From: Pseudomonas sp. FP2335
Lineage (GTDB): Bacteria; Pseudomonadota; Gammaproteobacteria; Pseudomonadales; Pseudomonadaceae
Direction: 5' to 3'
Assembly: GCF_030687535.1 (NCBI RefSeq)
Contig: NZ_CP117437.1
Coordinates: forward strand, 3,679,501 to 3,743,500
Length of the DNA: 64,000 bases
In this document: piece after piece, positions 29,601 to 44,559 of the stretch
Layout of the letters: the number at the start of each line of letters is the position of its first letter
Numbering within the stretch: position 1 is the stretch's first letter
The notes under the pieces: model-generated
What the model saw: the letters and a program-made list of their open reading frames with translations, nothing else
Told to the model about the DNA's origin: nothing
The model's database searches: none
Position numbers and translations under genes: made by a program

Positions 29601-30094
29601 GCACCAGGGCCTGCCAGGTCAGCAGGCAAACTCAACTGCAGTTTATCGTGGTAGCCCAGCCCAGGCTGCTCGTCGAGACCTGGCCTTTCCACCTTGGCGA
29701 AAACAGTCAGATTGTCCGAGGTGCTAGGGGTGCCGGGGCCATTTCGAACCACACGTGAAAACACCGGAAATGTGAGGCCTAGCGGAAACCGTTCTTCTTC
29801 TATGACAAGCCGGAAGAAGCTATTGGTTTCCTCGCCGGACCTGACAAAGTCCGACGCCAGTGGGATGACACTATTCTGCGCGTAAATCTCAAAAGTATCG
29901 CCGATGCTTAATCCGGTCCATCGGGAGAGCGTGACAAGCAAATAGGGCTGAAGATGGCGTGCGCCCAAGCCTATATCTGCCCCCACTACACCTAGTACCG
30001 GGTTGGAAAAAATCGGCGGTTCAAGATCATTGACGTGCGTGGAAGGCTGGCAACAAACAGGCAGGTGCGACTGCACCGCTGGTTCTTTAGACAT
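26690..30094 (-). CDS. Large multidomain beta-rich protein with Ig-like and lectin-like C-terminus
   Basis: A 1134-residue protein that I do not recognise as a named family. The first 860 residues are repeated beta-strand-rich segments of roughly 100-150 residues with few cysteines. Residues about 862-953 look like an adhesin-type Ig domain (ANQQVRLYENN, NASGDWSYT). Residues 954-1045 resemble a Big_2 domain (NSQTGAVSVRGNG, AYITVTDADG). The last 90 residues (GRLPSLGELREIYDVYG, FWSTDSAG) resemble the C-type-lectin-like or DUF1566-type ends seen in bacterial adhesins. No signal peptide is visible, so the export route is unclear. ATG 30094 has AAGGAG seven bases upstream. Composition is AT-richer than the neighbours, suggesting transfer. 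A LuxR-type box lies 75 bases upstream. Confidence 0.7.
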   Translation of the reverse strand: MSKEPAVQSHLPVCCQPSTHVNDLEPPIFSNPVLGVVGADIGLGARHLQPYLLVTLSRWTGLSIGDTFEIYAQNSVIPLASDFVRSGEETNSFFRLVIEEERFPLGLTFPVFSRVVRNGPGTPSTSDNLTVFAKVERPGLDEQPGLGYHDKLQLSLPADLAGPGAVLTPERAALGVTLTIDYPGKRVRDKVYLYWDTILNLVIFELDDEHAEGLKPIEVEVPPAIIGTGSGLISIRYQVFDEVENRSGHVEHFSQAVNLLAELDPSLLERAYFQVNFMDATTVNYDEEAGSNFRVEVVTPRRLPDGSLTPAGARIVVTLSCTRADSSTFTVELPDALVNPGRSSFFNVDEDIIKQLVQGSMKITWRLDFPLGTSIATSQSLTVLISGTIANMPAVNVVQALGGVVDPSEPFVTVEYPNPSFTPYDPGYLVTLCMEAYLPGGGIVSYEVSHIAGDPPPPTRFRTVSNAIFSRFIGLGPVRVFYKVDDGVVRLLGAGTQTVRESESTFVEFGPRLAEMPRPEIDRVDDQDNLDPRDLFGQLDITLPYLRTAPGDLFQWRLVGSAPTGSTNGEIRLSTATAGRPVLFSLDRHYADANLGGTIRLSYSLIPANGSRPLHSEVLEVTVGSPIGTLLRPEVLEAQKNPDKLQAEAALNGATVRVTTPQILPSDEIKMCFTGDDGVGTYCETKPGNTFKTVDFDVPAETVGANIQAGGRFITVQYWLIRGGRETPSPALSLELLPPTFQQPVIQGHSGDTLNTGALVGTELVMAGPWHFAQEFQRVWLEYHGKNADDTDYERVLLDGELVGSGGVTSGISTPALVSELRTLKNASELELRCWVSFNRSANKTDALMFPVRKYTVQHLTFITPTLTVHDSRGQLANNATTYDTSVTLKGKATANQQVRLYENNVQLIDRPVNASGDWSYTRTLAQVRSYAYRAVGLYDTQPSSGTTTIQRGAALSINTGAVTLNQRIWLWRDDPNYAPHSGPGVFTRSATGGRTPYTYRSNNEACARVNSQTGAVSVRGNGSAYITVTDADGNVLGYTVSVGGVKYFMDFGGGGGYHESGSQASGRGGRLPSLGELREIYDVYGGGSWRGQAHQAFWSTDSAGFLARYGKNLYSGGEINASELGNLLTLVIF

Positions 30095-30168
30095 GATTGA
30101 ACTCCTTGAACGCGGGCCTTTCAGGCCACGAGACAAGGAAATCAAACTCCTGGAGAGTCTTAGCGTCT

Positions 30169-30188
30169 ACCTGTCAGAACTGACAGTC
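30169..30188 (-). promoter_or_regulatory. LuxR-type (las/rhl-like) box upstream of the Ig-like gene
   Basis: CTGTCA-GAAC-TGACAG (30171-30186) is a perfect palindrome fitting CT-N12-AG. On the minus strand the 18 bases CTGTCAGTTCTGACAGGT differ at two positions from the lasB OP1 box as I recall it. Its centre lies about 35 bases before a possible -10 (TTTGAT, 30146-30141), the class II geometry. Assignment is by pattern, not experiment. Confidence 0.6.
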
Positions 30189-30340
30189 ACGACGAGTGGT
30201 ACTGCATTGCGTGGTCATCTTGCGAGCGTGACATTTGTGCTTTGCAAGTGGGTTCACATCTTTCCCTACATATTTTTCACGATTTATTCACATCTGCAGC
30301 CGTAGTGTGAAGCCTCATCCGTTACAAATGTTGCATATCA

Positions 30341-30369
30341 AGCCCGCCGCCCCAGCGGGCTTTTTTTTT
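30341..30369 (+). terminator. Plus-strand terminator without an assigned gene
   Basis: AGCCCGC-CGCCCCA-GCGGGCT followed by nine T residues on the plus strand. Both flanking genes are on the minus strand, and in that direction no T run follows the stem. It could end an unseen short plus-strand RNA or block antisense transcription into tetR. Confidence 0.65.
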
Positions 30370-30383
30370 GCCTCGGATCTGCT

Positions 30384-31136
30384 TTAACGCGAAGCCTTGG
30401 CGACCGGCGCCGCCGCCTGTTCACGAATCGCACGCTGGGTATCCAATACCCGCGCCAACGCGGTTTCAGCCTCGGGGCTCTGTTGCGGGACACGAATGGC
30501 CGCCGACACCAACGTGATCAACTTGGCCATCACCTCGGCATCCGTCGCCGGGCGGCCCAGGCTCATGGAGTTCATCAGCAGGCGCAGTTCCGTGCCGGCC
30601 ATCACTCCGGAAATCGCCTTGAGCGCAAATTGCAGGCGTACGCCCAGTTCATTGCGCGGCAGGTCCGGCAAGGCCAGGGCGAAGGCTTCGAAGAAACGCT
30701 GGAACACCGGCTGGTAATGCACCTTGAGGTATTCCTGGATAAACGGCGAGGTGTCGCTGTACACGCGACCGAGGAAGCGGATGAACGAACGGCCTTCCCC
30801 ACTGGCTGGGTCGCTGCGTTCCAGGCCCATGGCCGGGGCGAACAGCACGCCGAGCAGGGTGTCGCAATCGAGGGGGCCGTCGGATTCGGCCTCGCAGCGG
30901 GCCAGCAGCTCCAGGCGCTGCTCGTTGAGCGGCTCCAGGCGTTGCATCAACAGGGTTTTCATCAGGGAATCCTTGTCCCCGAAGTGATAGTTCACGGCGG
31001 CCAGGTTGACTTGGGCACGTTCGGTAATCTGGCGTAACAAAACCGCGTCATATCCGTACTTGATAAAGAGGGCCTCAGTCGCATCCAGCAATCGAGTTTT
31101 GGTAACGTTTGGAGCGCTGAGTTTCTTCGCGACCAT
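30384..31136 (-). CDS. TetR/AcrR-family transcriptional regulator
   Basis: A 250-residue regulator with an N-terminal helix-turn-helix at about residues 13-60 (TKTRLLDATEALFIKYGYDA, then LRQITERAQVNLAAVNYHFG) and a helical ligand-binding domain. The start MVAKKLSAPN at 31136 is preferred; an earlier in-frame start would add residues from the AT-rich operator region. It is divergent from the four-gene efflux operon, so local repression of that operon is the simplest reading. It also resembles regulators of fatty-acid or drug response in sequence, but the ligand is unknown. Confidence 0.88.
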   Translation of the reverse strand: MVAKKLSAPNVTKTRLLDATEALFIKYGYDAVLLRQITERAQVNLAAVNYHFGDKDSLMKTLLMQRLEPLNEQRLELLARCEAESDGPLDCDTLLGVLFAPAMGLERSDPASGEGRSFIRFLGRVYSDTSPFIQEYLKVHYQPVFQRFFEAFALALPDLPRNELGVRLQFALKAISGVMAGTELRLLMNSMSLGRPATDAEVMAKLITLVSAAIRVPQQSPEAETALARVLDTQRAIREQAAAPVAKASR

Positions 31137-31493
31137 AAGAGTTCCACGGCGGAAATATTGTTTTAAAAAATAATTTGATTTTTTATACCGGGGCCGCCCG
31201 TCGAAAGCAAGTAGTGACACACCACCATGCTATCCAAAGCCTTTGAAAACGGGGACATGGAGGCTGGTCAAAGGGGTTGATGGGGGCTCGAAACGGCCAG
31301 CGGGAACTTCGTTTCAAAGGGTAAAACCGCTCTACATCCATGGCTGGCGAAGCGCATTGAACGCGGTTACTATTCAAAGAATATTTTAAAAACAAGAAAT
31401 AAAACCGGTCCATGACGCCTACCCGGCAGCACCCGATCTTGTTACAAGGCTTTACCGGGAGTACGGGGTAGCGTCGAGACTGAAGGCGTAGTC
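31137..31493. promoter_or_regulatory. Divergent tetR / efflux control region with inverted AT-rich motif
   Basis: No gene is supported in this 357-base gap. Two similar AT-rich blocks lie in opposite orientation: 31158-31178 reads TTGTTTT-AAAAAATA-ATTTGA, and the reverse strand of 31374-31395 reads TTGTTTT-TAAAATATT-CTTTGA. One sits 22 bases before tetR and the other about 100 bases before the ABC gene, which would suit operator or promoter copies for each direction. Confidence 0.4.
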
Positions 31494-32201
31494 ATGATGA
31501 CAGATACCCCCGCGCACCCAGGCTTGATCTCCCTGCAAGGCATCGGCAAACGCTACCAGTTGGCCGGGCAGCCATTGTCCATTCTCAATGATGTGTGCCT
31601 GTCCATCGCCCGTGGCGACAGCTGCGGTATTCTCGGCGCCTCCGGTTCCGGCAAAAGCACCCTGCTCAATATCCTCGGCCTGCTCGACTTGCCCAACTGT
31701 GGCAGGTACCACTTCGCTGGCCACGACATCTTCAACGCCACGCCCGATGAACTGGCCGCGATCCGCAACCAGCAGATCGGTTTTGTATTCCAGAGTTTCA
31801 ACCTGCTGCCGCGCCTCAGTGCCCTCGATAACGTCGCCCTGCCCCTGAGTTATCGCGGCGTGTCCCGCCATGAATCGGTGGCGCAGGCGCTGCGCATGCT
31901 TGAACAGGTCGGCCTGGCCGACCGCGCTCACCACCGCCCCGCCGACCTCTCCGGCGGCCAGCGCCAACGGGTCGCCATCGCCCGGGCGCTGGTGGGCAAC
32001 CCCTCGGTGATCCTCGCCGACGAACCCACCGGCAACCTCGACAGCAGCACCGCCCAGGACATCATGGACCTGCTCCTGGCCCTCAACCGCGAGCAGCACG
32101 TCACCCTGATCATCGTCACCCATGACCCGCAGATCGCCGCACGCCTGGAGCGCAAGATCCTGGTGCGCAACGGCGTGGTGCAAGAGGCCGCGCACCCATG
32201 A
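31494..32201 (+). CDS. ABC exporter ATP-binding protein (MacB/LolD type)
   Basis: A 235-residue nucleotide-binding subunit with Walker A GASGSGKST, signature LSGGQRQRVA and Walker B VILADEPTGNLD, plus the EPTGNLDS extension typical of MacB/LolD/FtsE-type transporters. ATG 31494 has GAAGG seven bases upstream. Its end overlaps the permease start (ATGA). First gene of an operon with permease, outer-membrane channel and adaptor, forming a tripartite efflux system across both membranes. Confidence 0.93.
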   Translation: MMTDTPAHPGLISLQGIGKRYQLAGQPLSILNDVCLSIARGDSCGILGASGSGKSTLLNILGLLDLPNCGRYHFAGHDIFNATPDELAAIRNQQIGFVFQSFNLLPRLSALDNVALPLSYRGVSRHESVAQALRMLEQVGLADRAHHRPADLSGGQRQRVAIARALVGNPSVILADEPTGNLDSSTAQDIMDLLLALNREQHVTLIIVTHDPQIAARLERKILVRNGVVQEAAHP

Positions 32202-33397
32202 GCCTGCGGGTCGAGCAGAGCCTGAGCCAACTGCTGCATGAAGCGTTCCTCAGCCTGCGCACCCTGGGCAAGCGCTCGGTGCTGGCGTTGCTCGGCATCG
32301 TGATCGGCAGCTCGTCGGTGGTGGCATTGATCAATATCGGCCACAACGCGGCGGTGGATGCCGCGATGATCTTCAAGGACATGGGCACCGACACCCTGAT
32401 CGCCGGGTTCCCGCCCAAGGGCAGCAACGCGGTGACCATGCGTGCGCGCCTCGACCTCGACGCCGTCCGCCAGGCCGTGCCGGGCATCGCGCATATCGGC
32501 GCGCTCAGCCTGTTCAGCGGGCCCGTCGTGTTCCATGGGCGTACGGCCAACGCCAACTACGTCGGCAGCACGCCGGGCCTGCCAGATGCGATGCGCTTGA
32601 GCCTGGCCGAGGGGCGTTTTTTGTCGGAATTCGATGCCAATGAAACCTACGCGGTGATCGGCGACCAACTCGTGCAGGCCCTGAGCGCCCCCGGCGACCC
32701 GCTGCAACTGGGAGATCGGGTACGCATCAACGACTACCTGTTCCTCATCGTCGGCATCCTGCACCGCCAACCGCGCGCGATGTTGATGCCGGTGCAGGGC
32801 GGCGAATCGCTGTTTATCCCGGCCGAAGGCATGCGCCGCATCTACGCCACCCCGCAGATCAACAACGTGGTGATCCGTGCCGCACCCGGCCAGGACATGG
32901 AGCACATGGCCGCAGCCGCCAGCGCCGCGCTGCAACCCCAGCTCAGCGAACACAGCGTGGACATCACCGTGCCCCAGCAAATGATCGACGGCATGACCCG
33001 GCAAAGCCGCACCTTCGCCTACCTGCTACTGGCGCTGGGGGCGATCTCCCTGGTGGGCGGCGGGGTCGGCGTGATGAACGTGATGCTGATGAACGTGTCG
33101 CAGCGCCGCCGCGAAATCGGCATCCGCATGGCCCTCGGCGCGCGTCAGCGTGACATCCGCAACCTGTTCCTGCTCGAAGCCGTGACCCTCACCGCCGTCG
33201 GCGCGCTGTGCGGCGCGGTGCTGGGCATGGGCGCCGCGTGGCTGTACGCCTGGCTGTCCGGCTGGGAGTTTGCCCTGGCCGTCGCCGCCCTGCCCCTTGG
33301 GGTCGGCAGTACGTTGTTGGTGGGTCTGTTCTTTGGTATCTACCCGGCGGTCTCGGCCTCGCGGTTGCAGCCGGTGGAGGCCTTGCGCGATGAATAA
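32198..33397 (+). CDS. ABC exporter permease (MacB type, FtsX fold)
   Basis: A 399-residue inner-membrane subunit: helix one at about residues 20-45 (RSVLALLGIVIGSSSVVAL), a periplasmic MacB-like core, then three C-terminal helices with VGVMNVMLMNVSQRRREIGI, the conserved FtsX-family coupling segment. Unlike MacB it carries no fused ATPase; the ATPase is the preceding gene. Its end overlaps the channel gene start at 33390. Substrate unknown; macrolides, lipopeptides or siderophores are known for relatives. Confidence 0.92.
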   Translation: MSLRVEQSLSQLLHEAFLSLRTLGKRSVLALLGIVIGSSSVVALINIGHNAAVDAAMIFKDMGTDTLIAGFPPKGSNAVTMRARLDLDAVRQAVPGIAHIGALSLFSGPVVFHGRTANANYVGSTPGLPDAMRLSLAEGRFLSEFDANETYAVIGDQLVQALSAPGDPLQLGDRVRINDYLFLIVGILHRQPRAMLMPVQGGESLFIPAEGMRRIYATPQINNVVIRAAPGQDMEHMAAAASAALQPQLSEHSVDITVPQQMIDGMTRQSRTFAYLLLALGAISLVGGGVGVMNVMLMNVSQRRREIGIRMALGARQRDIRNLFLLEAVTLTAVGALCGAVLGMGAAWLYAWLSGWEFALAVAALPLGVGSTLLVGLFFGIYPAVSASRLQPVEALRDE

Positions 33398-34853
33398 ATG
33401 GCTCGCCGTCGTCGCCCTGATCAGCCTGCCGTGCATGGCCGCCGACGTGCTGATCAACCCTTCGGCGCCCAGCAGCGCGCGCAGCGTCTCGTTGAATGCC
33501 CAGGTCACCGCCCTGACCCTGGGCGATGCGGTGTACCTGGGCCTGCGCAACAATCCGGCGATCCGCAGCGCGTACCTGCAACGGGTGGCGCAGAAGTTCG
33601 ACCTGCGCGTGGCCGAAGACGTCTTCAGCCCCAAGCTCACCCTCAACAGCTACTACCGCAGCACCCGCGGTTCGGCCGACAACGCACGCAACGCCAACGT
33701 GGCACCGGCCACCAGCCTGCTCGGCGAGTACGGCACGCGCCTGAGCATGGCCTGGACCCAGCAACTGAACAACGCCAATCGCGCCGGCCGCTACCGCAGC
33801 GACGGCCTCGACCTGGCGCTGATCCAGCCGCTGATGCGGGGGGCCGGCTGGGACGCCACCACCGCCCCACTGCGCCTGTCGCGCCTGGCGGAACAGGCCA
33901 ACCGCCTCAACCTCAAGGCCACCGTGGCGCAGACCATCAGCCAGATCATCGCCACCTACCGCGAACTGCTGCGCGCCCAGGAACAACTGAGCATCGTGCA
34001 AGATGCGCTCAAACGCTCCGACACCCTGCTGGAAGTGAACAAAGCATTGATCAGTGCCGGGCGCATGGCCGAGTTCGAAATCGTGCAGACCGAAGCCGAC
34101 ATCGCCACCCAGCAACTGGGCGTCGAAGAAGCCCGGAACCAGCTCGACACCACCCGCCTGGCGTTGCTGCGCCTACTGGCCCTGGACCTGTCCACGCCGA
34201 TTCGCGCCACAGAAGCCCTCGAGGCCAGCCCCATGCAGATCGACAAGGGCCAGGCCTTCAACCTCGCGCAAAACCAGCAGCCGGAATACCTAGCCGCCCT
34301 GCTCGGCAGCCAACAGGCCGACCTCAACCTGGTGATCGCCAAGGATTCCGGACGCTGGCAAGTGGACCTGGTCGCCGGCGCCAACCAGATCCGTGACGCT
34401 TATAACAACGACGCCGGCAGCCGCAACAACCGCACCTGGGACAGCTACGCCGGGGTGCAGGTGCAGATCCCCATCGGCGACATCAGCACGCGCCAGGCCG
34501 AAGTGCGCGCGCGGGTGAACGTGGAAGACCAGCAGATCCGCATCACCGACGCCCGCCAGGCCCTGGAGCGCAGTGTCAACGATGTGGTGCGCGACCTCGG
34601 CACCCGCTGGCGCCAATATGAAATCTCCCAGCGCGCCGTGGAGCTGTCGCGGCGCAAGATCGAGATCGAACGGGAAAAACTCAGCGCCGGGCGCTCCACC
34701 AACTTCCAGGTGCTGAGTTTCGAGGCCGATTTGCGCAATGCCGAAAACGCGCAGCTCAATGCGCTGATCGCTTATCTGAACGCCCAGACCCAGCTCGACT
34801 TGACCCTGGGCATGACGCTGGAAAGTTGGGAAATCGCCCTCAATGACTACTAA
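33390..34853 (+). CDS. TolC-family outer-membrane efflux channel
   Basis: A 487-residue precursor with a signal peptide (MNKWLAVVALISLPCMA) and two repeated coiled-coil halves of the outer-membrane efflux protein family, for example residues near AQTISQIIATYRELLRAQEQ and TDARQALERSVNDVVRDLG. The start overlaps the permease stop by 8 bases. Having its own channel gene inside the operon means the pump need not borrow a general TolC. Confidence 0.9.
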   Translation: MNKWLAVVALISLPCMAADVLINPSAPSSARSVSLNAQVTALTLGDAVYLGLRNNPAIRSAYLQRVAQKFDLRVAEDVFSPKLTLNSYYRSTRGSADNARNANVAPATSLLGEYGTRLSMAWTQQLNNANRAGRYRSDGLDLALIQPLMRGAGWDATTAPLRLSRLAEQANRLNLKATVAQTISQIIATYRELLRAQEQLSIVQDALKRSDTLLEVNKALISAGRMAEFEIVQTEADIATQQLGVEEARNQLDTTRLALLRLLALDLSTPIRATEALEASPMQIDKGQAFNLAQNQQPEYLAALLGSQQADLNLVIAKDSGRWQVDLVAGANQIRDAYNNDAGSRNNRTWDSYAGVQVQIPIGDISTRQAEVRARVNVEDQQIRITDARQALERSVNDVVRDLGTRWRQYEISQRAVELSRRKIEIEREKLSAGRSTNFQVLSFEADLRNAENAQLNALIAYLNAQTQLDLTLGMTLESWEIALNDY

Positions 34854-36078
34854 TCAAAAACGCCTGCTGGGCGCCGGGTTGATCGTGCTGTTGGTCGGCG
34901 CCGGGCTGACCTGGCGCAGCACCGCCGAAAGCCCGGCCACCGCCACCGAGCAATGGCTGGCGGTGAACCCCGAGCCGCTGGTGCATCAGATCGGCCTGGT
35001 GGGCAAGATCGAGCCCGACACCACCCTCATCCTCACCGCGCCCTTCGATGGCAATGTCGAGGCGAACCTGGTGGAGCAAGGCCAGCGGGTCGACGCGGGC
35101 CAGGTGTTGCTGCGCATGGACCCGGCGACCCTCGAAGTGCAACTGCGCGAAGCCCTCGCTGCCCAACTCAAGGCACGTCGCACCGTGCAGGAGATGCAGG
35201 ACTGGGACAGCAGCCCTGCCGTCAGCCGCGCGCGGCGCAGCCTGCGCACCGCCGAAATGAACGCGGGCAACACCCAACGCAAACTCAGTGAAAGCGAAAA
35301 CCTGTTCCAGCGCGGCATCATCCCGCGCAACGAACTGGACGACCTCAAGCAACAGACCCGCCAGCAACAACTCGATCTCGCCGCGGCCCGCAGCGAACTG
35401 CAACAGGCCATCGACCAGGGCAAGGGCGAATACCGCCAGATCGCCGACATGGAACTGACCAATGCCACGGTCAAATACGACGCCCTGCGCACGCTGCTGG
35501 CAGGCCGCGAGGTCAAGGCGCCGTTCTCCGGAATCGTGGTGCCCGCCCCCGGCAATACCTCGACGCCAGGCAGCAACAACGCGCCGGTGCAGGCCGGCAG
35601 CAAGGTCAACCAGGGCCAGGTGTTGTTTGGCCTGGCGAATATCGAGCGGTTGAAGATCGTCGCCAAGGTCTCGGAATTGGACATCAACAGGTTGCATCAA
35701 GGCCAGGCCGTGGAGGTGCTCGGCGACGGGTTTGATGGCGAACGGCTCAACGGCGTGGTCAGCGTGGTCAGCGGCTTGGCGATTGCCGGTGACAGCCAGG
35801 GCAGCGCGCAGTTTGCGGTGAGCCTGTCGATTCCCAAGCTCACGCCACAGCAGTTGCAGCGGGTGCGATTGGGCATGAGTGCGCGGTTGACCATTGTCAC
35901 TTACAACAATGCACAGGCGATCGTGGTGCCGGCGCAGGCGCTCGCTGGCGGTGAAGTGGAGTACCGGGAGGCGCTGGACAAGCCGGTGGAACGGGTCAAG
36001 GTCACGACCGGGCAAGCGACGGCGCAAGGGGTCGAGGTCTTCGGCCTAAAACCCGGCTTTATCAAAACCCCCAGATAA
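34843..36078 (+). CDS. HlyD/MacA-type periplasmic adaptor, shortened C-terminus
   Basis: A 411-residue membrane-fusion protein with an N-terminal helix (LLGAGLIVLLVGAGLTW), lipoyl halves (NLVEQGQRVDAGQVLLRMDP and APFSGIVVPAPGN), a long coiled-coil hairpin between them and a beta-barrel. It bridges the permease and the outer-membrane channel. It overlaps the channel gene by 11 bases. After FGLKPG the family pattern is lost and the protein ends FIKTPR exactly where a long palindromic repeat begins, suggesting that the repeat replaced the last residues. Confidence 0.88.
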   Translation: MTTNQKRLLGAGLIVLLVGAGLTWRSTAESPATATEQWLAVNPEPLVHQIGLVGKIEPDTTLILTAPFDGNVEANLVEQGQRVDAGQVLLRMDPATLEVQLREALAAQLKARRTVQEMQDWDSSPAVSRARRSLRTAEMNAGNTQRKLSESENLFQRGIIPRNELDDLKQQTRQQQLDLAAARSELQQAIDQGKGEYRQIADMELTNATVKYDALRTLLAGREVKAPFSGIVVPAPGNTSTPGSNNAPVQAGSKVNQGQVLFGLANIERLKIVAKVSELDINRLHQGQAVEVLGDGFDGERLNGVVSVVSGLAIAGDSQGSAQFAVSLSIPKLTPQQLQRVRLGMSARLTIVTYNNAQAIVVPAQALAGGEVEYREALDKPVERVKVTTGQATAQGVEVFGLKPGFIKTPR

Positions 36079-36218
36079 CCTTGTAGTGAGCGGGCTTGCC
36101 CCGCGCTGGGGGGCGAAGCCGCCCCAAAACGGTCCGCCGCGGTGTATCAGAAAGACCGAGGTGCCGGGATTTGGGGCGGCTTCGCCCCCCAGCGCGGGCA
36201 AGCCCGCTCACTACAAGG
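36079..36218. repeat. Long palindromic repeat, second family (copy 1)
   Basis: Inverted arms of about 49 bases, starting CCTTGTAGTGAGCGGGCTTG and ending CAAGCCCGCTCACTACAAGG, around a 40-base centre. One extra C in the left arm is the main mismatch. The element abuts the adaptor gene stop and its right end provides the stop codon of the flavoprotein gene. A second copy is at 49314-49445. Confidence 0.88.
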
Positions 36219-37608
36219 TCGGGGTCAGTTTTGAGGCGAGGGCTTTGGCTTGGAGTGCTACGTCGGTGACGGCCGTGCTTTCCCACCACAGCCCCCGCAA
36301 CGGCGGGCCCATGGCGAACAAACGGCTGCTGACTTGCCCTTGCGAGTCCACCACCGCCCCACCCGCATCTGCCGCAATCCCCAATGCCAGCGGCCCGGGC
36401 CGGATCAAGCCGCGCTTGAGCAATTGCTGTGGCAGCGGCCGGGCTACGCGGCGCCAGTCATATTCGATGCCGCTGGAGTTGATCAGCGCCGCCCCCCGAA
36501 CCCGAGTGATTGCCTGCTCGCCGCGATAGCGCACGCGAATGCAAACGCCGTCTACCGACGGCTCCAGGCCTTTGTACGACGCCGCCTGAATACGCAAGCG
36601 CCCCGCTTCATGCAAGCGCGCCACCAACTGCGCGCTCAACGGCGGTGAGCGGTGGTGATGACTCTCCCACCACGGCCGCACATGCCTCACGAACTGACGC
36701 TTTTGCCGCTCACTGGCCTGGCTCCACAACCGGCCGATATGCGCACGCACGGTGTCCAGCGGCGCTTGCCAATCGATGCCCTGGGCCTGTGCGATCCGGC
36801 ATTGGCGGCGCACCTCGCGCAGCAGTTGCCGAGGGCTGCGCAGGCTCGGGTCTTCGGCGAGAAAGTCCACCCAGGCCGGCGGCTGCCGACGCACATGGGG
36901 CAACAACCCATGCCGTGAAAAAACCTCGATAGGCCCGCGATGCCCGGCCAGTTCCAGGGACACCACGGCGTCGACCATGGTCAGCCCGGAGCCGATGATC
37001 AGCACGCTGGCCTGCGGGTCAATCTGGGTCATGCTGCTCACGTCCCATGGGTCAACCGCCGCCGCGTTCAAACCGCTGGACTCGGTCTGCGGCGTACGCG
37101 CCGCCGGAAACATTCCGGTGGCCAGCACCGCAAAGGCGCCGCGCAGTTGCTGGCCGTTATCCAGGGTCAACAACGTCGCCGCTTCATCCACTTGCACATC
37201 GACCACTTCGCCGCGCACATGCTCGACCGTCGACGCCGACAACGCCTGGGCCTGCGCCAACCGCTGCTGCGCATACAAGCCAAAGATCCCGCGCGGTGGG
37301 AACAATTCGCTGATCGGCACGCGCTGCTGGTGCGCCTGCGGCCAGCCACCGGCACCGATGTAGTCGGTGAGCCATTGGGTCAGGTCATCGGCGTTGTCCG
37401 GGTCGACGCTCATGCGTGCGGCGTTGCCGTTCAACGTGTGGCCCAGCTCAACTGCGCTGTAGGCCTCGCCACGGCCGAGTTCGGCGCGCGGTTCGATCAC
37501 CAGAATCCGCCGCTGGCCCGGCCGGCGCAGTAGTTGCACCGCGAGCATCGTGCCACTTAGCCCGCCGCCGATGATCAAAACATCGGCGTTGCGGATGGAG
37601 TCAGTCAT
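36211..37608 (-). CDS. FAD/NAD(P)-binding oxidoreductase-like protein (NAD_binding_9 type)
   Basis: A 465-residue flavoprotein with an N-terminal dinucleotide-binding motif IIGGGLSGTMLAVQLL (about residues 11-26), the continuing GRGEAYSA segment, and a second nucleotide fold at VLIIGSGLTMVDAVVSLE. These are features of the NAD_binding_9 group related to flavin monooxygenases. It is the last gene of the minus-strand importer operon, 12 bases after the LivF-type gene. The reaction is unknown; oxidation of the imported compound is plausible. The final Leu codon and the TAG stop lie in the palindromic repeat. Confidence 0.82.
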   Translation of the reverse strand: MTDSIRNADVLIIGGGLSGTMLAVQLLRRPGQRRILVIEPRAELGRGEAYSAVELGHTLNGNAARMSVDPDNADDLTQWLTDYIGAGGWPQAHQQRVPISELFPPRGIFGLYAQQRLAQAQALSASTVEHVRGEVVDVQVDEAATLLTLDNGQQLRGAFAVLATGMFPAARTPQTESSGLNAAAVDPWDVSSMTQIDPQASVLIIGSGLTMVDAVVSLELAGHRGPIEVFSRHGLLPHVRRQPPAWVDFLAEDPSLRSPRQLLREVRRQCRIAQAQGIDWQAPLDTVRAHIGRLWSQASERQKRQFVRHVRPWWESHHHRSPPLSAQLVARLHEAGRLRIQAASYKGLEPSVDGVCIRVRYRGEQAITRVRGAALINSSGIEYDWRRVARPLPQQLLKRGLIRPGPLALGIAADAGGAVVDSQGQVSSRLFAMGPPLRGLWWESTAVTDVALQAKALASKLTPTL

Positions 37609-37620
37609 GCCTGTTCGCCT

Positions 37621-38388
37621 TTACTGTTTACCCAGATAAATGTCGTGCAAGTCGCCCCGCGCCAGCAGCTGCGCCGCGTTGCCACTCAAGGCCACGCGGC
37701 CAGTATCCAGCACGTAACCGTGGGACGCATAGGTGAGCGCGACGTTGATGTTCTGCTCGGCGATCAGGAAGCTCACCTGCTGCTCGCGGTTGAGCTGAGC
37801 GATGATCGCGAAAATCTCCTGCACGATCATAGGCGCCAAACCCATGGACGGCTCGTCGAGCAGTACCAAAGTAGGACGGGTCATCAACGCCCGGCCAATG
37901 GCGACCATCTGCTGCTCGCCGCCGGAGGTCAGCCCGGCGCGGGTGTGGCGCCTGGTCTTGAGCCGGGGAAACCAGCTGTAGATACGCTCCAGGTCGTGCT
38001 CCATGTCCTGGCGACTCAGGCGCCGCACAAAGCCGCCGCTGCGCAGGTTGTCTTCCACGCTCAGTTGGCCGAACACATGGCGGCCCTCCAGGACGTGAAC
38101 CATGCCTTGGCGCACGCGCTGGCTGGGGTCGACACCGGCCAGGTCGGCGCCGGCGTACTCAATCACCCCCCGGCTGACTTCGGCGCGCTCGGCGCGCACC
38201 AGGCCGGAAATCGCCTTGAGTGTGGTGCTCTTGCCTGCGCCATTGGCGCCGAGCAAGGCGACGATGGCGCCCTTGGGCACGTGCAGCGAAACCCCGGCCA
38301 CCGCCAGGATCGCACCGTCGTAGATCACTTCGATGTCGTTGACCGTCAGCAACGACGGGGTGGCGGATGCAGCGGCGGGCTGGTGCAT
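37621..38388 (-). CDS. ABC importer ATP-binding protein, LivF type
   Basis: A 255-residue ATPase with Walker A GANGAGKST, signature TSGGEQQMVAIGRAL and Walker B LVLLDEPSMGLAP, the latter typical of LivF. Together with the LivG-type, LivH/LivM-type and binding-protein genes upstream on the same strand it makes a complete branched-chain amino-acid-type (HAAT) importer. It starts 3 bases after the binding-protein stop. Confidence 0.93.
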   Translation of the reverse strand: MHQPAAASATPSLLTVNDIEVIYDGAILAVAGVSLHVPKGAIVALLGANGAGKSTTLKAISGLVRAERAEVSRGVIEYAGADLAGVDPSQRVRQGMVHVLEGRHVFGQLSVEDNLRSGGFVRRLSRQDMEHDLERIYSWFPRLKTRRHTRAGLTSGGEQQMVAIGRALMTRPTLVLLDEPSMGLAPMIVQEIFAIIAQLNREQQVSFLIAEQNINVALTYASHGYVLDTGRVALSGNAAQLLARGDLHDIYLGKQ

Positions 38389-38391
38389 GGT

Positions 38392-39732
38392 TTATTCATC
38401 CCCGATGCAGGTGCGCGGCGTCAGGCCTTTTTCCTTGGCGAAGGCGGCGGATTTTTCGTCGATCAACGGCCGCAACAGTGCACGGTCGGCCGGGATCCAT
38501 TCACTGACCAACGTCCAGTTGGCGCCGTCCCATTGCTGTACCCGCGCCGAACCGCCGCCTTCGTGGTCACGGCACGACAGCTTGAGGTTTTGCATCAGGC
38601 CCAGGTAGCCCATGTCCTTGAGGCGAGCGTCGTCGATATTCAAGTGCTCCAGGCCCCAGCGGCCTTCTTCGCCGTTGAGCGGGCGCTTGCCGAACTTGGC
38701 CTGGGCGGTACGTATGGCTTCCACCGCCACGGCGGCATTCACCAGGCCGGAGTTGTAGTAGACGCTGCCGAAGTTTTTCAGGTCCTTGAGGTCGCTGTGG
38801 CCCTTGTCGAGGATGTAGTGCTTGAGGCGTTTGTGGATCTCGAAGTCGGCACCGGCCGGGTAAGGCGTCAGCGCCAGGTAGCCTTTGGCTGAGCTGCCAG
38901 CGGGCAACACGTCTTCGCTGGAACTGGCCCAGATGTCGCCGATGATGTGGTCGACCGGAAAGCCGAAGCGTGCGGCAGTCTTCACCGCCACCGGGGTGGA
39001 TACGCCCCAGGTGCGCAGGAACACCCAGTCCGGGTTGGCCTGGCGCACCTGGCGCCATTGTGCCGATTGCTCGTTGCCTGGGTCGGCCACCGGGATCTGG
39101 ATATTTTCAAAGCCGTACTTCTCGGCGAGCAGCTTCAGCGGGCCGAGGGTTTCGCGACCATAGGCCGAGTCGTGGTAGACGGTGGCGATCTTCTTGCCCT
39201 TGAGTTTGTCGAACCCACCCTCGCGCTGAGCAATGTAGTTCACCAGCGTCGACGCCTCACTGTAGAAGGTCAGCATCACCGGGAAGTTGTACGGGAACAC
39301 CGTGCCGTCGGTGGCCTCGGTGCGCCCGTATCCGAGGGTGATCAGCGGGATCTTGTCCACTTCCGCACGCTCGCTCAGGGCATACGCCGCCGGTGCGCCG
39401 TTGGGCTGGTACACCGCCACCGGCGCGCCATCCAGGCCGTTCTTGAAGCGCTCGTAGCACTCGATGCCTTTCTCCGCCGTCCACTCGGTCTCGCACTCTT
39501 GCCACACCAGCTTGACGCCGTTGATACCGCCTTCGACCTCGTTGATATAGCGCAGATAGTCGATCATTCCGGCCCACACCTGCACGCCGCTGGACGCATA
39601 GGCGCCGACGCGATAGGTCGCCAGGGGAATAAATTGCTGATCGGCCGACGCCACGGCCTGGGGCACAGCACCGGCCAATGCCGCCAGTGCAAAGGCAGCA
39701 CCGGCGAAAGAACGTTTCAAGGATGCACGCAT
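38392..39732 (-). CDS. ABC importer periplasmic binding protein (Peripla_BP_6 type)
   Basis: A 446-residue precursor with a signal peptide (MRASLKRSFAGAAFALAALA, cleavage near AVASA-DQ) and a type I periplasmic-binding fold. It is longer than classical LivJ/LivK (about 370), like binding proteins found in clusters with acyl-CoA ligases. Start 39732 is preferred; an in-frame start 54 bases upstream would precede the signal peptide by 18 residues. The ligand is not evident. Position in the operon: after LivM-type and before LivF-type. Confidence 0.9.
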   Translation of the reverse strand: MRASLKRSFAGAAFALAALAGAVPQAVASADQQFIPLATYRVGAYASSGVQVWAGMIDYLRYINEVEGGINGVKLVWQECETEWTAEKGIECYERFKNGLDGAPVAVYQPNGAPAAYALSERAEVDKIPLITLGYGRTEATDGTVFPYNFPVMLTFYSEASTLVNYIAQREGGFDKLKGKKIATVYHDSAYGRETLGPLKLLAEKYGFENIQIPVADPGNEQSAQWRQVRQANPDWVFLRTWGVSTPVAVKTAARFGFPVDHIIGDIWASSSEDVLPAGSSAKGYLALTPYPAGADFEIHKRLKHYILDKGHSDLKDLKNFGSVYYNSGLVNAAVAVEAIRTAQAKFGKRPLNGEEGRWGLEHLNIDDARLKDMGYLGLMQNLKLSCRDHEGGGSARVQQWDGANWTLVSEWIPADRALLRPLIDEKSAAFAKEKGLTPRTCIGDE

Positions 39733-39751
39733 GAAGGATTCTCTTGGGAAG

Positions 39752-40801
39752 TTAGAAACGCAGCGGCCACTGCCGCACACGGTCACGCAGGTTGTGCAAC
39801 AAGCGAATCAAGCCCTCGGGTTCCTTGATCAGGAACACGATGATCAACACGCCAAAGATGATTTTTTGCAGGTTCTGCAACTGCCCCGCATCCACCGCGC
39901 CGCCGAACAACGCCTGCCCAGCATGACTGAGGAAAATCGGCAGCAAACTGATAAAGGCCGCACCGACAAAGTTGCCGGCGATGCTGCCCATACCGCCGAT
40001 AATGATGATGAACAGGATCTGGAATGAGCGATTGATGTCGAAACTGCTGGCGCTCGCCGTGCCCAGGTAGGCAAAGGCCCACAGCGCACCGGCGATGCCG
40101 AGGTAGAACGAACTGACGGCAAACGCCAGGCGCTTGTAGCGCACCACCGGGATGCCCACCACGGCGGCGGCGGTGTCCATGTCGCGGATCGCCATCCAGT
40201 TGCGTCCGACCTGGCTGCGCACCAGGTTGATCGCGGTCCAGGTCAACACCACCACCGTCACCAGCGTCAGCAGATAGCGGCCCAGCGGCGTGTTGAGGTC
40301 ATGGCCGAACAGCGCCAGCTTCGGCGCGGAGATGGTCCCGGAGGACCCGTAGTTGTAGAACCAGGGGAATTTGACGAACAGCCACTCCAGGAAAAACTGC
40401 GCGGCCAAGGTGGTGACCATCAAATAGAAGCCCTTGATCCGCGCGCTGGGCAGGCCGAACAACAGCCCGACCAGCGCGCTGATAATCCCACCGCCCAGCA
40501 GCGCCACCGGCAAGCCCAGCTCCGGCAGACGCAGCAGAAAGCCATAGGTGGCAAACGCGCCGACGGCCATGAAACCCGCCGCGCCCACCGAAGTTTGCCC
40601 GGTGTAGCCAGTCAGCAAGTTCAGGCCAAGCCCGGCCAGCGACAACACCAGGAACGGAATCAGGATCGCGTTCAGCCAGTAGTCATTGCCCCACAACGGC
40701 ACCACGATGAACGCCAGCGCCAACAGGCCGATCAGGCCCCAAGGGAGGCGCCGCTGGATCAGCACCAACGGCGCGCAGTGTTGCGCAACAGGAATCGACA
40801 T
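39752..40801 (-). CDS. ABC importer permease, LivM type
   Basis: A 349-residue inner-membrane permease with about ten helices, with LNLLTGYTGQTSVGAAGFMAVGA and the coupling segment RDMDTAAAVVGIPVVRYKRLAFAVSSF (both family-typical, cited in part). Four bases separate it from the LivH-type gene upstream. It pairs with that gene to form the translocation channel. Confidence 0.92.
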   Translation of the reverse strand: MSIPVAQHCAPLVLIQRRLPWGLIGLLALAFIVVPLWGNDYWLNAILIPFLVLSLAGLGLNLLTGYTGQTSVGAAGFMAVGAFATYGFLLRLPELGLPVALLGGGIISALVGLLFGLPSARIKGFYLMVTTLAAQFFLEWLFVKFPWFYNYGSSGTISAPKLALFGHDLNTPLGRYLLTLVTVVVLTWTAINLVRSQVGRNWMAIRDMDTAAAVVGIPVVRYKRLAFAVSSFYLGIAGALWAFAYLGTASASSFDINRSFQILFIIIIGGMGSIAGNFVGAAFISLLPIFLSHAGQALFGGAVDAGQLQNLQKIIFGVLIIVFLIKEPEGLIRLLHNLRDRVRQWPLRF

Positions 40802-40805
40802 GGTT

Positions 40806-41687
40806 TCAGACTCGCTCGATGGCGCGCTCGCCGAACAGGCCGGCGGGACGGATATACAGGAAGGCCAGGGCCAATACGTAGGCGAACCACGGCGTGATGC
40901 CGCCGCCGATCAACGGGCCGATATACACCTCGGCGAGGTTCTCCGCGGCCCCGACAATCAGCCCGCCGACGATCGCCCCGCCAATCGAGGTAAAGCCGCC
41001 GATGATCAGCACCGGCAGGGCCTTGAGCACCACCAGCGACAGCGAAAACTGCACGCCCTGGCGCGCGCCCCACAACAGCCCGGCGACCAGCCCGACCACC
41101 CCGGCCACGGCCCAGACGATCTGCCAGATACGGTTGAGGTTGATACCGATGGACAGCGCCGCCGTGGTGTCATCCGCCACCGCGCGCAACGACACACCGA
41201 TGCGGGTCTTGTTGAACAACAGCGCCAACACCGTCACCAGCACCACCGCCACCGCCGCCGCGATCAGGTCAAACTGGCTGAGCATCAGCGGGCCGACGAA
41301 CAGCGGCACATCGTCGATGCCCAGATCCAGAGCGCGCACCTGCGAGCCCATCAGGCCCTGGGCGAGGCCTTCGATGATGAACGAGAGGCCGAGCGTGGCC
41401 ATGAACAAGGTGATCTGCGAACGGTTCACCAAGGGCCGCAGCACCAGGCGCTCGATCAGCAGCGCACCGAGGCTCATCACGATCACCGTGAGCAGCAACG
41501 CCAGGGCAAACGGCACCCCCTGATCATGCAGGCTGACGAAGGTCAGCGCGGCGAACAGCAGCATCGCGCCCTGGGCAAAGTTGAACACGCCGCTGGCCTT
41601 GTAGATCAGCACAAAGCCGATGGCGACCAGCGAGTACATGGTGCCGGCGAGCAGGCCGCCGAGCAGGGTTTCGAAGAAGAACGTCAT
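40806..41687 (-). CDS. ABC importer permease, LivH type
   Basis: A 293-residue inner-membrane permease with eight or more helices: GGLLAGTMYSLVAIGFVLIY near the N-terminus, the coupling segment RIGVSLRAVADDTTAALSIG, and IGGFTSIGGAIVGGLIVG late in the protein. The start overlaps the stop of the LivG-type gene by one base. Confidence 0.92.
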   Translation of the reverse strand: MTFFFETLLGGLLAGTMYSLVAIGFVLIYKASGVFNFAQGAMLLFAALTFVSLHDQGVPFALALLLTVIVMSLGALLIERLVLRPLVNRSQITLFMATLGLSFIIEGLAQGLMGSQVRALDLGIDDVPLFVGPLMLSQFDLIAAAVAVVLVTVLALLFNKTRIGVSLRAVADDTTAALSIGINLNRIWQIVWAVAGVVGLVAGLLWGARQGVQFSLSLVVLKALPVLIIGGFTSIGGAIVGGLIVGAAENLAEVYIGPLIGGGITPWFAYVLALAFLYIRPAGLFGERAIERV

Positions 41688-42457
41688 CAGTGCGCCGCTC
41701 CCAGGTAGGCCGCGATCACTTCGGGGTTGGCTTGCACTTGCGCGGGCGTGCCGTCGCCGACCTTACGTCCGTAGTCGAGCACCACCACGTGGTGGGACAG
41801 GCCCATCACCACGCCGATGTCGTGTTCGATCAACACCACGGTGGTGCCCAGGTCACGGTTAACGTCGGCGACGAAACGTGCCATCTCCTGTTTTTCCTCG
41901 GCGTTCATGCCGGCCATGGGTTCGTCGAGCAGCAACAGACTGGGCCCGGCGATCAGCGCCCGGCCCAACTCCACGCGCTTTTGCAGGCCGTAGGACAGGT
42001 TGCCCACCAGCACATCGCGGTGGGCTTGCAGTTCGAGAAATTCGAGCATGCCCTGGGCGCGCCGGCGGAACGCTTCGGCCTCGCGGCGTGCGCGGGGCAG
42101 GCCCAGGGCTTGCTCGATGAACGTGCTGCGCATATGCCGCGAGAGGCCGGTGAGGATGTTGTCGAGCACGCTCATTTTCTTGAACAGCGCGTTGTTCTGA
42201 AAGGTGCGGCCGATGCCGCGGCGCGCCGCACCCAATGGGTCGATGCGGTGAAAGTGCCGGTCTTCGAAGACGATCTCGCCGGCATCGAAGCGATACACGC
42301 CGTTGAGCACATTGAGCAACGAACTCTTGCCCGCGCCGTTGGGCCCGATCAACGCGCAGATCTCACCGCGCTGCACGTCAAAGGACAAGGCATTGATCGC
42401 CTTGACCCCTTTGAACGACAGCGAGATGTCGCGTACCTGGAGAATGGTTTGGCTCAT
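41687..42457 (-). CDS. ABC importer ATP-binding protein, LivG type
   Basis: A 256-residue ATPase with Walker A GPNGAGKSS, the divergent LivG signature LSYGLQKRVELGRAL and Walker B LLLLDEPMAGMN, with EHDIGVVMGL as switch. It overlaps the upstream acyl-CoA-synthetase-like gene by four bases (ATGA). The gene order ligase-like, LivG, LivH, LivM, binding protein, LivF is a recurrent one in proteobacteria. Confidence 0.93.
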   Translation of the reverse strand: MSQTILQVRDISLSFKGVKAINALSFDVQRGEICALIGPNGAGKSSLLNVLNGVYRFDAGEIVFEDRHFHRIDPLGAARRGIGRTFQNNALFKKMSVLDNILTGLSRHMRSTFIEQALGLPRARREAEAFRRRAQGMLEFLELQAHRDVLVGNLSYGLQKRVELGRALIAGPSLLLLDEPMAGMNAEEKQEMARFVADVNRDLGTTVVLIEHDIGVVMGLSHHVVVLDYGRKVGDGTPAQVQANPEVIAAYLGAAH

Positions 42458-43353
42458 GCGATGTCCCGTTTGAATTCAGCCAGCCACGTAGGCGAAGCGG
42501 TGGCTTTCAGGGGTTGCCAGATGTAGGCCAGGCGCTGGAAACCGAGCAGCTTGCGCACGCGGTTTTTCAGCAGCCGGCGCAGGCCGCTTTGCGGGTGGGC
42601 GATGGCCCACTCGCACAGGCGTCGGCGCCAGGTACCGTGGGGCGCGAGGCGGCTTTCGATTTCCGCAGCCAGGTGCTGCAGGCGTTCGGCAGACAACAGC
42701 AAGCCGGTGGGCGCGACTTCGCGGCGGTCGCGCTGCGCCGAGGCCAGGCTTTCCGGGAAAGCCAAGCCGTGGCCGGTGTTGAGCCACTGCTCCAGCAGCA
42801 CCGCCAGGCCGCCCTGCCAGTGGGTGCCCTCTTCGCTCCACAAGGCGGTTTCGCCGGCCGGTTGCCACCAACGCACGAGGTGTTGCGCGGGGTCGACCGG
42901 GCCGAGCAACTGGACGAAATCCAGCGGGTTGGCGCACGCCCAGTGCCGTTGCTGACGGCCTTGCACATAAGAATGGCTGGGGCGGATACGCCATAGTTGG
43001 TGCTGCACCGCTTCCGCCTCCAGGTCATCGGCCAAGGTCAGCACCTGCCCGTCGACGGCTTGGGCGGCCAGGGCCAGCAGCAACAGGTTCGGCTCAAACG
43101 CACCGCACAAGACCAAGCGCGACTGCTCGTTGAAGCCTTGCTGGCGCAAACCATCGGCCAGGCGCTCAACGTCACGCAAGGCGTCGATCCAGCGCCACGC
43201 ATACCACTGGCCCTGGCGCTTGTGACGCAAGGCGGTGTGCAGCGGGGTGATCTGCGCCCAGTGGTGCAGTTGTTCAAGGGCCTTGGGCAGGTTGCCAAGC
43301 AGTTCGGCGGGCCATTCCACGGCCAGCGGGCGTTTTAGTTCATGCACGCTCAT
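42454..43353 (-). CDS. Shrunken acyl-CoA synthetase (AMP-binding) family protein, probably inactive
   Basis: A 299-residue protein that aligns by eye to about 600-residue long-chain acyl-CoA ligases. The N-terminal part (YAWRWIDALRDVERLADGL) and the middle part (GLAFPESLASAQRDRREVAP, then a helix ending CEWAIA, and RVRKLLGFQRLAYIW) follow the ligase pattern. The AMP-binding P-loop (TSGTTGxxKG) that should lie before the middle part is missing, as is everything after about half length, including the adenylate and CoA sites. The reading frame is clean and translationally coupled to the LivG-type gene, so it may persist as a non-catalytic protein. First gene of the importer operon. Confidence 0.75.
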   Translation of the reverse strand: MSVHELKRPLAVEWPAELLGNLPKALEQLHHWAQITPLHTALRHKRQGQWYAWRWIDALRDVERLADGLRQQGFNEQSRLVLCGAFEPNLLLLALAAQAVDGQVLTLADDLEAEAVQHQLWRIRPSHSYVQGRQQRHWACANPLDFVQLLGPVDPAQHLVRWWQPAGETALWSEEGTHWQGGLAVLLEQWLNTGHGLAFPESLASAQRDRREVAPTGLLLSAERLQHLAAEIESRLAPHGTWRRRLCEWAIAHPQSGLRRLLKNRVRKLLGFQRLAYIWQPLKATASPTWLAEFKRDIA

Positions 43354-43422
43354 AGGGAGTATTCCTATAGAGGGTTAAGCGTGCGGTGGTCCGCTGGCTG
43401 AGAGTGGTGTGTATCGATGCAG

Positions 43423-43438
43423 TGCAGGAGTCGTGCCT
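43423..43438 (-). promoter_or_regulatory. Sigma-54 (RpoN) promoter of the importer operon
   Basis: Read on the minus strand: AGGCACGACTCCTGCA. It fits the consensus TGGCACG-N4-TTGCW with GG and GC ten bases apart; only the first T and one T of TTGC differ. The predicted start is near 43412, giving a leader of about 60 bases. The identical 16 bases precede the sfnB operon. Confidence 0.75.
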
Positions 43439-43522
43439 ACAGGCACATCCGCCGAAACCCTGCTGTTTCTCACCTATCATCGCCCCGGCGCTCGGTGCGG
43501 ATTGAACAAAGTGTGTGTTCGC

Positions 43523-43538
43523 TGTTGCGAGAGCAACA
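43523..43538. promoter_or_regulatory. Putative enhancer-binding-protein site for the importer operon
   Basis: TGTTGC-GAGA-GCAACA is a perfect 16-base palindrome centred 94 bases upstream of the -24 GG, the usual distance for sigma-54 activator sites. A related sequence occurs at the same distance before the sfnB promoter. Confidence 0.5.
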
Positions 43539-43600
43539 TTTTAGCCAATGACTGATTGCCCTCCGTAATTGCTATTTATTCTAAACAAATCACGGATTAA

Positions 43601-43620
43601 ACCTGTCACCTTTGACAGTA
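43601..43620 (+). promoter_or_regulatory. LuxR-type box upstream of the 292-residue gene
   Basis: ACCTGTCACCTTTGACAGTA contains CTGTCA-N4-TGACAG with perfect 6-base arms. Its centre is 32 bases before the centre of a possible -10 element (GATAAC, 43640-43645), so the box would cover the -35 region as in class II quorum-sensing promoters. Same arms as the site at 30169-30188. Confidence 0.6.
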
Positions 43621-43680
43621 TAAAAACCCCATCGCCCCCGATAACCTACTCCTCCCTTTTTCACACAGTGGACATTCGGT

Positions 43681-44559
43681 ATGACGCTCTTCAGAAAAAA
43701 CCATTCCAATGACACAATCGGAACTTGCACAGCCTCCCTTAACAACGATCCTGATTTCGCATCCTTTTCTGCCAATAGGTTCACCTTTTACCCCAATGAC
43801 ACGTTCAATACATGGACCGTGATTGCAGAGGCACCAGAAAACGGCACCGGCACCCACCAACTCTTTACGTTCTCTATCCCGATGGAAGGCAACGTCAACC
43901 AAAAAAAATATTTATTGGGTGGCCACTCTGCTGGCGATGCCAGCGCCTATTATGTCAAGTCCATATTTGGAACCTGGCATAACTATCTTGCGAAAAGTGG
44001 TTCAATAACCGTTACCGTCAACGAGCAGAATCAATCGTTCACAGCAGACTTCAACTTTGACGCACAGAGCGGTTCCCATGCCATTGGTGTAACCAATGGC
44101 GCACTGAATGTAATGGGTTATAGCGAAGAGCAAAAAACCGATGATGAGGGTTCGGTGTCGGCCATAATCACCGGCGCGATTGACTGGGACTATCGATCCA
44201 CCGAGGTCGAGTACACCTACGAAGTCGACTCCGATATGCCTTCTTCAATCCTGGCCTGGTCACGTCAATATGTAGATAGACCCAATACCTCCACCCACAT
44301 CCTCAGCATACGAATCGCCGACAACCTTACCGCTGGCATTTATGCAATAAGCGCAACCAGCCAGCAAGTCAGATCCTTCTTTTACGACATGAATCAGAGA
44401 TTCATAGCCTATCAGGCTGTGAGCGGGACATTGAAACTTACTTCTGTACCCGACTCAAACAACAAATTACTCGACGGTACTTTCGACTTTATAGGAACTA
44501 CTTCCGACGGCGCGGACACTATCAACGTAAGTGATGGAGTTTTGCACATTCAAAAATAG
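43681..44559 (+). CDS. Beta-rich protein with two similar halves, function unknown
   Basis: A 292-residue protein without cysteine-rich or enzyme motifs; I do not recognise its family. Two segments share a layout. The first, about residues 60-150, runs from QLFTFSIPMEG through YLLGG, SGSITVTV, FTADFNFDAQSG to VTNGALNV. The second, about 205-292, runs from HILSIRIADN through GIYAIS, SGTLKLTS, LLDGTFDFIGTT to VSDGVLHIQK. Each looks like an eight-strand beta domain. No signal peptide. Composition is clearly AT-richer than neighbours, suggesting transfer. It stands alone behind a LuxR-type box. The start has a modest GTGGA site eight bases upstream. Confidence 0.7.
   Translation: MTLFRKNHSNDTIGTCTASLNNDPDFASFSANRFTFYPNDTFNTWTVIAEAPENGTGTHQLFTFSIPMEGNVNQKKYLLGGHSAGDASAYYVKSIFGTWHNYLAKSGSITVTVNEQNQSFTADFNFDAQSGSHAIGVTNGALNVMGYSEEQKTDDEGSVSAIITGAIDWDYRSTEVEYTYEVDSDMPSSILAWSRQYVDRPNTSTHILSIRIADNLTAGIYAISATSQQVRSFFYDMNQRFIAYQAVSGTLKLTSVPDSNNKLLDGTFDFIGTTSDGADTINVSDGVLHIQK

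Follow-up and report, generated by a model that had tools for sequence, protein, structure and literature searches.

A window of 64,000 nt from Pseudomonas sp. FP2335 (NZ_CP117437.1, positions 3,679,501 to 3,743,500) carries two perfect copies of the palindrome CTGTCA-N4-TGACAG, hereafter the box, each in front of a gene of lower GC content than its surroundings (genes 1 and 2; Table 1). We consider it probable that these palindromes serve as operators in a regulon spanning much of the genus and that a LuxR-type activator binds them, a PpoR-family 'subgroup A' LuxR solo being the likeliest one. That the boxes mark a real regulon we regard as virtually certain, and the two in the window belong to a set of roughly a dozen such promoters in this genome.

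An earlier reading of the window, made from the letters alone (the sequence-only reading), had proposed two LuxR-type boxes upstream of GC-poor orphan genes under quorum-sensing control. An exact motif scan bore out both boxes and the absence of any further perfect copy in the window. With up to two mismatches allowed, one more match appears (at 7399, with two mismatches), and the resulting 3 matches against 2.17 expected represent no excess at this looser setting. From box end to ATG, the distance predicted to be about 60–75 bases measured 76 bp for gene 1, on the minus strand, and 62 bp for gene 2. The assignment to the lux/las/rhl type also held: the palindrome has the CTG-N10-CAG frame and is present at promoters, and both window boxes match the frame CTGT-N8-ACAG of the Vibrio fischeri lux box, ACCTGTAGGATCGTACAGGT, as given in an excerpt of PMC4444344.

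The genome-wide scan that the sequence-only reading had suggested gave a clear excess, with the exact box at 13 places in the 6.06 Mb genome against 0.28 expected at 60% GC, and no match to a reversed control motif. Across 249 Pseudomonas genomes there were 1707 exact boxes and 21 matches to the reversed control. Boxes were absent from 70 of these genomes, single in 24, and present in 2–3 copies in 18, 4–9 copies in 63 and 10–35 copies in 74; we term the 137 genomes with at least 4 boxes (4–35 each) box-rich, and the 94 with 0–1 box box-poor. A scan for the box extended by TAG across titled genomes returned at least 119 stretches, of which at least 94 are from Pseudomonas. Because the counts in both the genome and the genus far exceed those of the reversed control, chance was rejected. 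That the boxes are accidental, or a repeat family devoid of regulatory role, deserves hardly any weight. One of the 13 places does fit such a view, as the palindrome before a dihydropyrimidinase-like gene (L015:3988-4003) is without a TAG flank, has a longer symmetry of its own and is probably the operator of another regulator; the same palindrome precedes the same gene in two single-box genomes (L025, L039). For the set as a whole, the controlled genus counts, the direction of the element, the placement of the -10 and the phasing of AlgR-like sites contradict it.

The element is directional, running from the box through TAG, the start of a -35-like TAGnCA, to a -10-like hexamer. Among 59 sites unselected for TAG, this triplet adjoins the box in 31, on both sides in 10 of them, where 1.8 would be expected. 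In 104 sites with a one-sided TAG, the start of a -10-like hexamer lies 23 nt past the box (most frequent bases TTTAAT, the last T in 71%), and the mirrored side of the same sites shows no -10 peak. TAGnCA, found beside the box in 44 of the 104 oriented sites, would serve as the -35 hexamer with a spacer of 17 bp, which would place the box at about -51 to -36. Reckoned from the -10 peak, the box centre falls at about -43.5, i.e. near -42 and next to the -35 region, a position that would suit an activator site. The two window boxes follow this pattern imperfectly. At box 1 the TTTGAT lies one base beyond the genus-wide optimum and the TAG is likewise shifted by one; box 2 is the less typical of the two, with its TAT flank and poor -10. 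As sequences, both of the window's own -10-like elements are poor.

Upstream of the box, a further feature recurs. The AlgR consensus is CCGTTCGTC according to PMC4064291, and a further set of 104 oriented sites was searched for it, with up to one mismatch, over the 60 bp upstream. It occurs in 24 of the 104, 8 times perfectly; shuffled sequences gave 0.97, and seven windows of 60 bp placed elsewhere gave 1–3 apiece. Some of the 24 loci are orthologous and therefore not independent. The gaps to the box are 4–5, 15–16 or 26 on one strand (14/14) and 9, 19–20 or 28 on the other (10/10), so the AlgR-like sites stand on one helix face relative to the box. Box 1 has such a site, CCACTCGTC, with two mismatches to the consensus and a gap of 4, one of the genus-wide preferred phases. 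No AlgR-like site was seen upstream of box 2, and of ten further box sites inspected in this genome, one has a perfect AlgR site and one a site with one mismatch.

The genes behind the boxes are diverse. Taking both sides of each box, 148 predicted adjoining genes were searched against Pfam; the commonest families were cold-shock (4), RHS repeat (4), VRP1 (3), DUF5122 (3), Big_6 (3) and Big_13 (3), SpvB and GH3 were among those with a single member, and at least 58 of the 148 match no Pfam family. Box-associated genes in relatives include Tc/Rhs-like ones, and in Pseudomonas lini CC269 (L138:3418-4739) a perfect box is followed, at 79 bp, by the start of a gene for an alpha-hydroxyketone-type autoinducer synthase (559 bits against a cut-off of 428). 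In the present genome, where several of the names are our own reading, boxes precede genes for a GH3 enzyme, an Ig-repeat protein, a SET-domain protein, small proteins lacking a Pfam match, and a 916-amino-acid protein that also lacks one and is encoded next to a gene resembling those of non-ribosomal peptide synthetases; a further one stands before a cold-shock-like gene that is flanked by an flhB-like and an flhA-like gene. The gene set behind the boxes in many Pseudomonas species is apparently undescribed. No description of the motif was found in the literature text searched for its written forms, and those papers containing both half-strings that were checked, a small part of them, held primers. 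The likeness of box 1 to the lasB OP1 element, raised in the sequence-only reading, is a presumed one; the OP1 string was not found in the literature text searched.

The palindrome frame, the single direction, the position upstream of a -35/-10 pair and the recurrence across the genus make a LuxR-type activator box the best reading of the element. A LuxR-type dimer would bind the box just upstream of the -35/-10 elements and switch on mostly lineage-specific proteins, and AlgR may modulate some of these promoters. That some regulator of the LuxR/FixJ class acts at the box we hold to be quite likely. The genome is equipped for this: AHL-type (acyl-homoserine lactone) regulators, whose absence would have spoken against quorum sensing, are present as three proteins with Autoind_bind and GerE domains, all above the Pfam cut-off, together with one LuxI homologue (Autoind_synth PF00765, 93.9 bits, cut-off 24, 1.1e-26) that falls below the NCBIfam cut-offs. 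Of the three luxR genes, one is divergent from the LuxI homologue, one is flanked by iminopeptidase-like genes and one lies at the fpr-rlmG locus (gene names from our own reading and PMC8546723). The protein at this last locus is a member of subgroup A (PpoR) as defined in PMC8546723, a study that did not find the subgroup's targets, and it would be the likeliest single binder.

The case for the subgroup A solo rests on co-occurrence. Counting matches at E values up to 1e-25, with synteny left aside for individual genomes, a subgroup A match was found in 126 of the 137 box-rich genomes and in 39 of the 94 box-poor ones. Where genomes have at least 2 boxes, 99 of 106 alignment rows show Arg in the recognition helix; where they have 0–1 box, 21 of 22 show Ser. 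The rows were chosen from listed matches, and some genomes contribute two. Helix type and box centre also vary together: for 7 rows with the helix GFHMST the centre is TTTC in 100 of 158 boxes and GATC in 0 of 158, and for 20 rows with NYHVQN it is GATC in 161 of 402 and TTTC in 15 of 402. One supporting case comes from Pseudomonas fluorescens PS691 (L171:3093-4001), where a luxR resembling that of subgroup A (40% identity) and not beside fpr/rlmG is preceded by a perfect box at 191 bp. PMC7683790 reports putative lux boxes at other LuxR loci, with no sequence given for them in the part consulted.

Several observations weigh against this assignment. Eleven of the 137 box-rich genomes have no subgroup A match; in ten of them no Autoind_bind luxR was found beside fpr/rlmG, only other LuxR proteins, and in the eleventh (G085) the place is held by a luxR fragment. 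In four genomes the fpr-rlmG luxR has an internal stop, among them G223 with 34 boxes (L176) and G074 with 30 (L223), the others being G087 and G182. Seven box-rich rows carry Ser in the recognition helix, and in a 116-row tree those from box-poor genomes form essentially one clade and need only two changes, so we treat the Arg/Ser correlation as weak. The box-centre classes also follow species groups, and TTTC centres prevail (34 of 80 boxes) in the eleven genomes without subgroup A too, so that the centre preference need not come from the subgroup A LuxR. In the present genome no box with up to two mismatches was found near the subgroup A luxR; one two-mismatch match lies about 4.5 kb away. 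Finally, reporter tests of a subgroup A member described in PMC8546723 identified no target, and among the titles listed for the literature from 2021 on, that 2021 paper is the only one bearing on such targets. We put binding of the box by the subgroup A solo at slightly under even chances. Overall, a LuxR-class activator is likely and this solo the best single candidate, neither being proven.

The remaining LuxR proteins of the genome make poorer candidates. The window genes might be driven by the LuxR divergent from the LuxI homologue, i.e. by true quorum sensing, or by the LuxR of the plant-signal type, the one flanked by iminopeptidase-like genes, and both proteins do carry Autoind_bind and GerE, with the LuxI homologue scoring as given above. 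This we judge improbable: boxes with up to two mismatches are absent from 13.4 kb around the luxR/luxI pair (L020:5762-7235) and from 12.5 kb around the plant-signal luxR, the LuxI homologue reaches no NCBIfam cut-off, and the plant-signal-type LuxR occurs in only 43 of the 137 box-rich genomes, on which ground it was rejected as universal binder. A 242-amino-acid LuxR of syringae-like genomes (our label) was likewise rejected in that role, being found in 22 of the 249 genomes and not in this one. The proposal that quorum sensing controls both window genes is partly supported, namely as to a lux-type box at an activator position in a genome encoding LuxR and LuxI homologues.

A response regulator of the EvgA/BvgA type, also of the LuxR/FixJ class, would answer a sensor kinase rather than a diffusible signal and would require neither LuxI nor AHL. 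In this genome an EvgA-like regulator gene, followed by a gene for a 1204-amino-acid EvgS-like hybrid kinase (L285:2701-6943; G000:C1, from 2165700), has the one-mismatch box CTGTCAATTCTCACAG-GTAG 54 bp before its start and could be autoregulated; autoregulation was sought at one-mismatch boxes in 20 stretches of this genome, a part of all such sites. Boxes precede the gene in relatives as well, with one mismatch in four (L291-L294) and two in another four (L287-L290), and related genes have a perfect box in G105 and G053 (L298, L312) and a one-mismatch box in G174 (L311). Most other related loci fetched (L295-L314) have no near-match upstream, however. Among 80 chosen genomes, orthologues of at least 80% identity occur in 9, all close to this one, and relatives of 50–60% identity are found in box-free genomes too, so that the boxes do not track the regulator. 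We demoted the EvgA-like protein, which may simply belong to the regulon, from binder to probable regulon member, and regard a regulator of the EvgA/BvgA type as an unlikely answer. A regulator of another class with equal half-site spacing, such as a member of the CRP/FNR superfamily, would account for the box-bearing genomes without subgroup A; a palindrome with a 4-nt centre at an activator position is usual for FNR-like proteins too. The CTGT-N8-ACAG frame is nevertheless that of the lux box, and we judge this reading improbable.

Table 1. Features of the two box promoters, their genes and the candidate regulator (window coordinates unless a contig is given)
Feature	Position	Strand	Basis
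Box 1, CTGTCAGTTCTGACAG in the reading direction of gene 1, with GTAG next to it downstream	30171..30186	-	Exact motif match and flank
Box 2, CTGTCACCTTTGACAG, followed by TAT in place of TAG	43603..43618	+	Exact motif match and flank
TAGACG, -35-like, after box 1	30164..30169	-	Own reading against genus-wide pattern
TTTGAT, -10-like, 17-bp spacer to TAGACG	30141..30146	-	Own reading of flank
TAACCT, poor -10-like, at preferred distance from box 2	43642..43647	+	Flank inspection
AlgR-like site CCACTCGTC, upstream of box 1	30191..30199	-	
Gene 1, 1134 amino acids, matching Ig-like (Big) domains weakly, with a C-terminal tip that is exchanged from homologue to homologue	26690..30094	-	
Gene 2, 292 amino acids, DUF6252 (two stretches), nearly an orphan	43681..44559	+	
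TetR-family gene adjoining box 1, landmark of the syntenic locus, not claimed as box regulator	30384..31148	-	
PpoR-family subgroup A LuxR solo gene, between fpr and rlmG (L021)	G000:C1:5204302-5205009		

Both window genes are GC-poor, as had been stated, with a GC content of 0.555 for gene 1 and 0.472 for gene 2 (0.604 and 0.543 at third codon positions) against 0.614 for the window. Their description as orphans suits gene 2, which in a word-based search gave 3 matches, one apparently itself and the others at 71 and 63% identity, and does not suit gene 1, with 28 matches including itself among the 8000 best candidates scored. The further claim that they encode acquired extracellular-type proteins is unsupported as worded; for 'extracellular', neither N-terminus, read by eye, has a signal-peptide-like start. 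Domain matches of gene 1, of DUF type and Ig type, are all weak; its matches that bear an organism name are all from Pseudomonas, one being named YncE family. Of the 28 matches, 25 have a best alignment that ends somewhere from residue 858 to residue 971, and a second match inside the C-terminal tip was found in 5 of those 25, so that the homologues share the N-terminal ~865 residues and mostly differ in the tip. In three other genomes (L041, L045, L128) a perfect box lies at the same place beside a TetR gene 95–98% identical to that of the window, and the protein encoded behind the box shows, over the part that was read, 23–28% identity to the gene 1 product; as these loci were picked for a perfect box, it is the shared place that counts. 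Beside the same TetR gene in the window, genes for an ABC ATPase, a permease, a TolC-like and a MacA-like protein stand in a row (31494-36078) with no box in front; all these names except the ATPase are our own reading.

We tentatively suggest, with rather more doubt than confidence, that the boxes represent the regulon so far missing for the LuxR solo most common in fluorescent Pseudomonas, in which a signal-gated, AlgR-tuned promoter cassette stays constant and the genes behind it are replaced or reshuffled. If so, each lineage would plug its own interaction proteins (Ig-type with exchangeable tips, Tc/Rhs-like and orphans) into one shared social switch. The box itself provides a DNA signature by which a regulon with as many as 35 promoters in a genome can be counted. 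It also allows the targets of subgroup A LuxR solos to be tested for directly, and it brings together many unnamed, rapidly evolving Pseudomonas proteins that are likely to be co-expressed.

Among known systems, subgroup A (PpoR) solos of fluorescent Pseudomonas (PMC8546723; PpoR, PMC2703642) resemble the present case in that this genome has a member at fpr-rlmG and most box-rich genomes have a member too; the portion of PMC8546723 at hand gives a box or target for none of the group, whereas the link drawn here comes from co-occurrence. For EvgA/BvgA two-component systems the counterpart is an EvgA-like regulator that is encoded next to a hybrid kinase and has a near-perfect box in its promoter, yet this regulator falls below the EvgA cut-off (142.8 vs 251 bits) and its paralogues do not track the boxes. 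With the lux/las/rhl boxes of AHL quorum sensing there is in common the CTG-N10-CAG frame, the activator position by the -35 and the LuxR-type proteins encoded in the genome, whereas the boxes described here have near-fixed CTGTCA/TGACAG arms, a variable N4 centre, a TAG flank and phased AlgR-like sites, with no regulator or signal tied to them. AlgR-regulated promoters of Pseudomonas aeruginosa likewise carry CCGTTCGTC sites, and the legend of a promoter figure in the review PMC4064291 also marks Lux-type boxes in AlgR-bound promoters; in the promoters analysed here, by comparison, roughly one oriented site in four has the AlgR-like site upstream of the box, at fixed phases of the helix.

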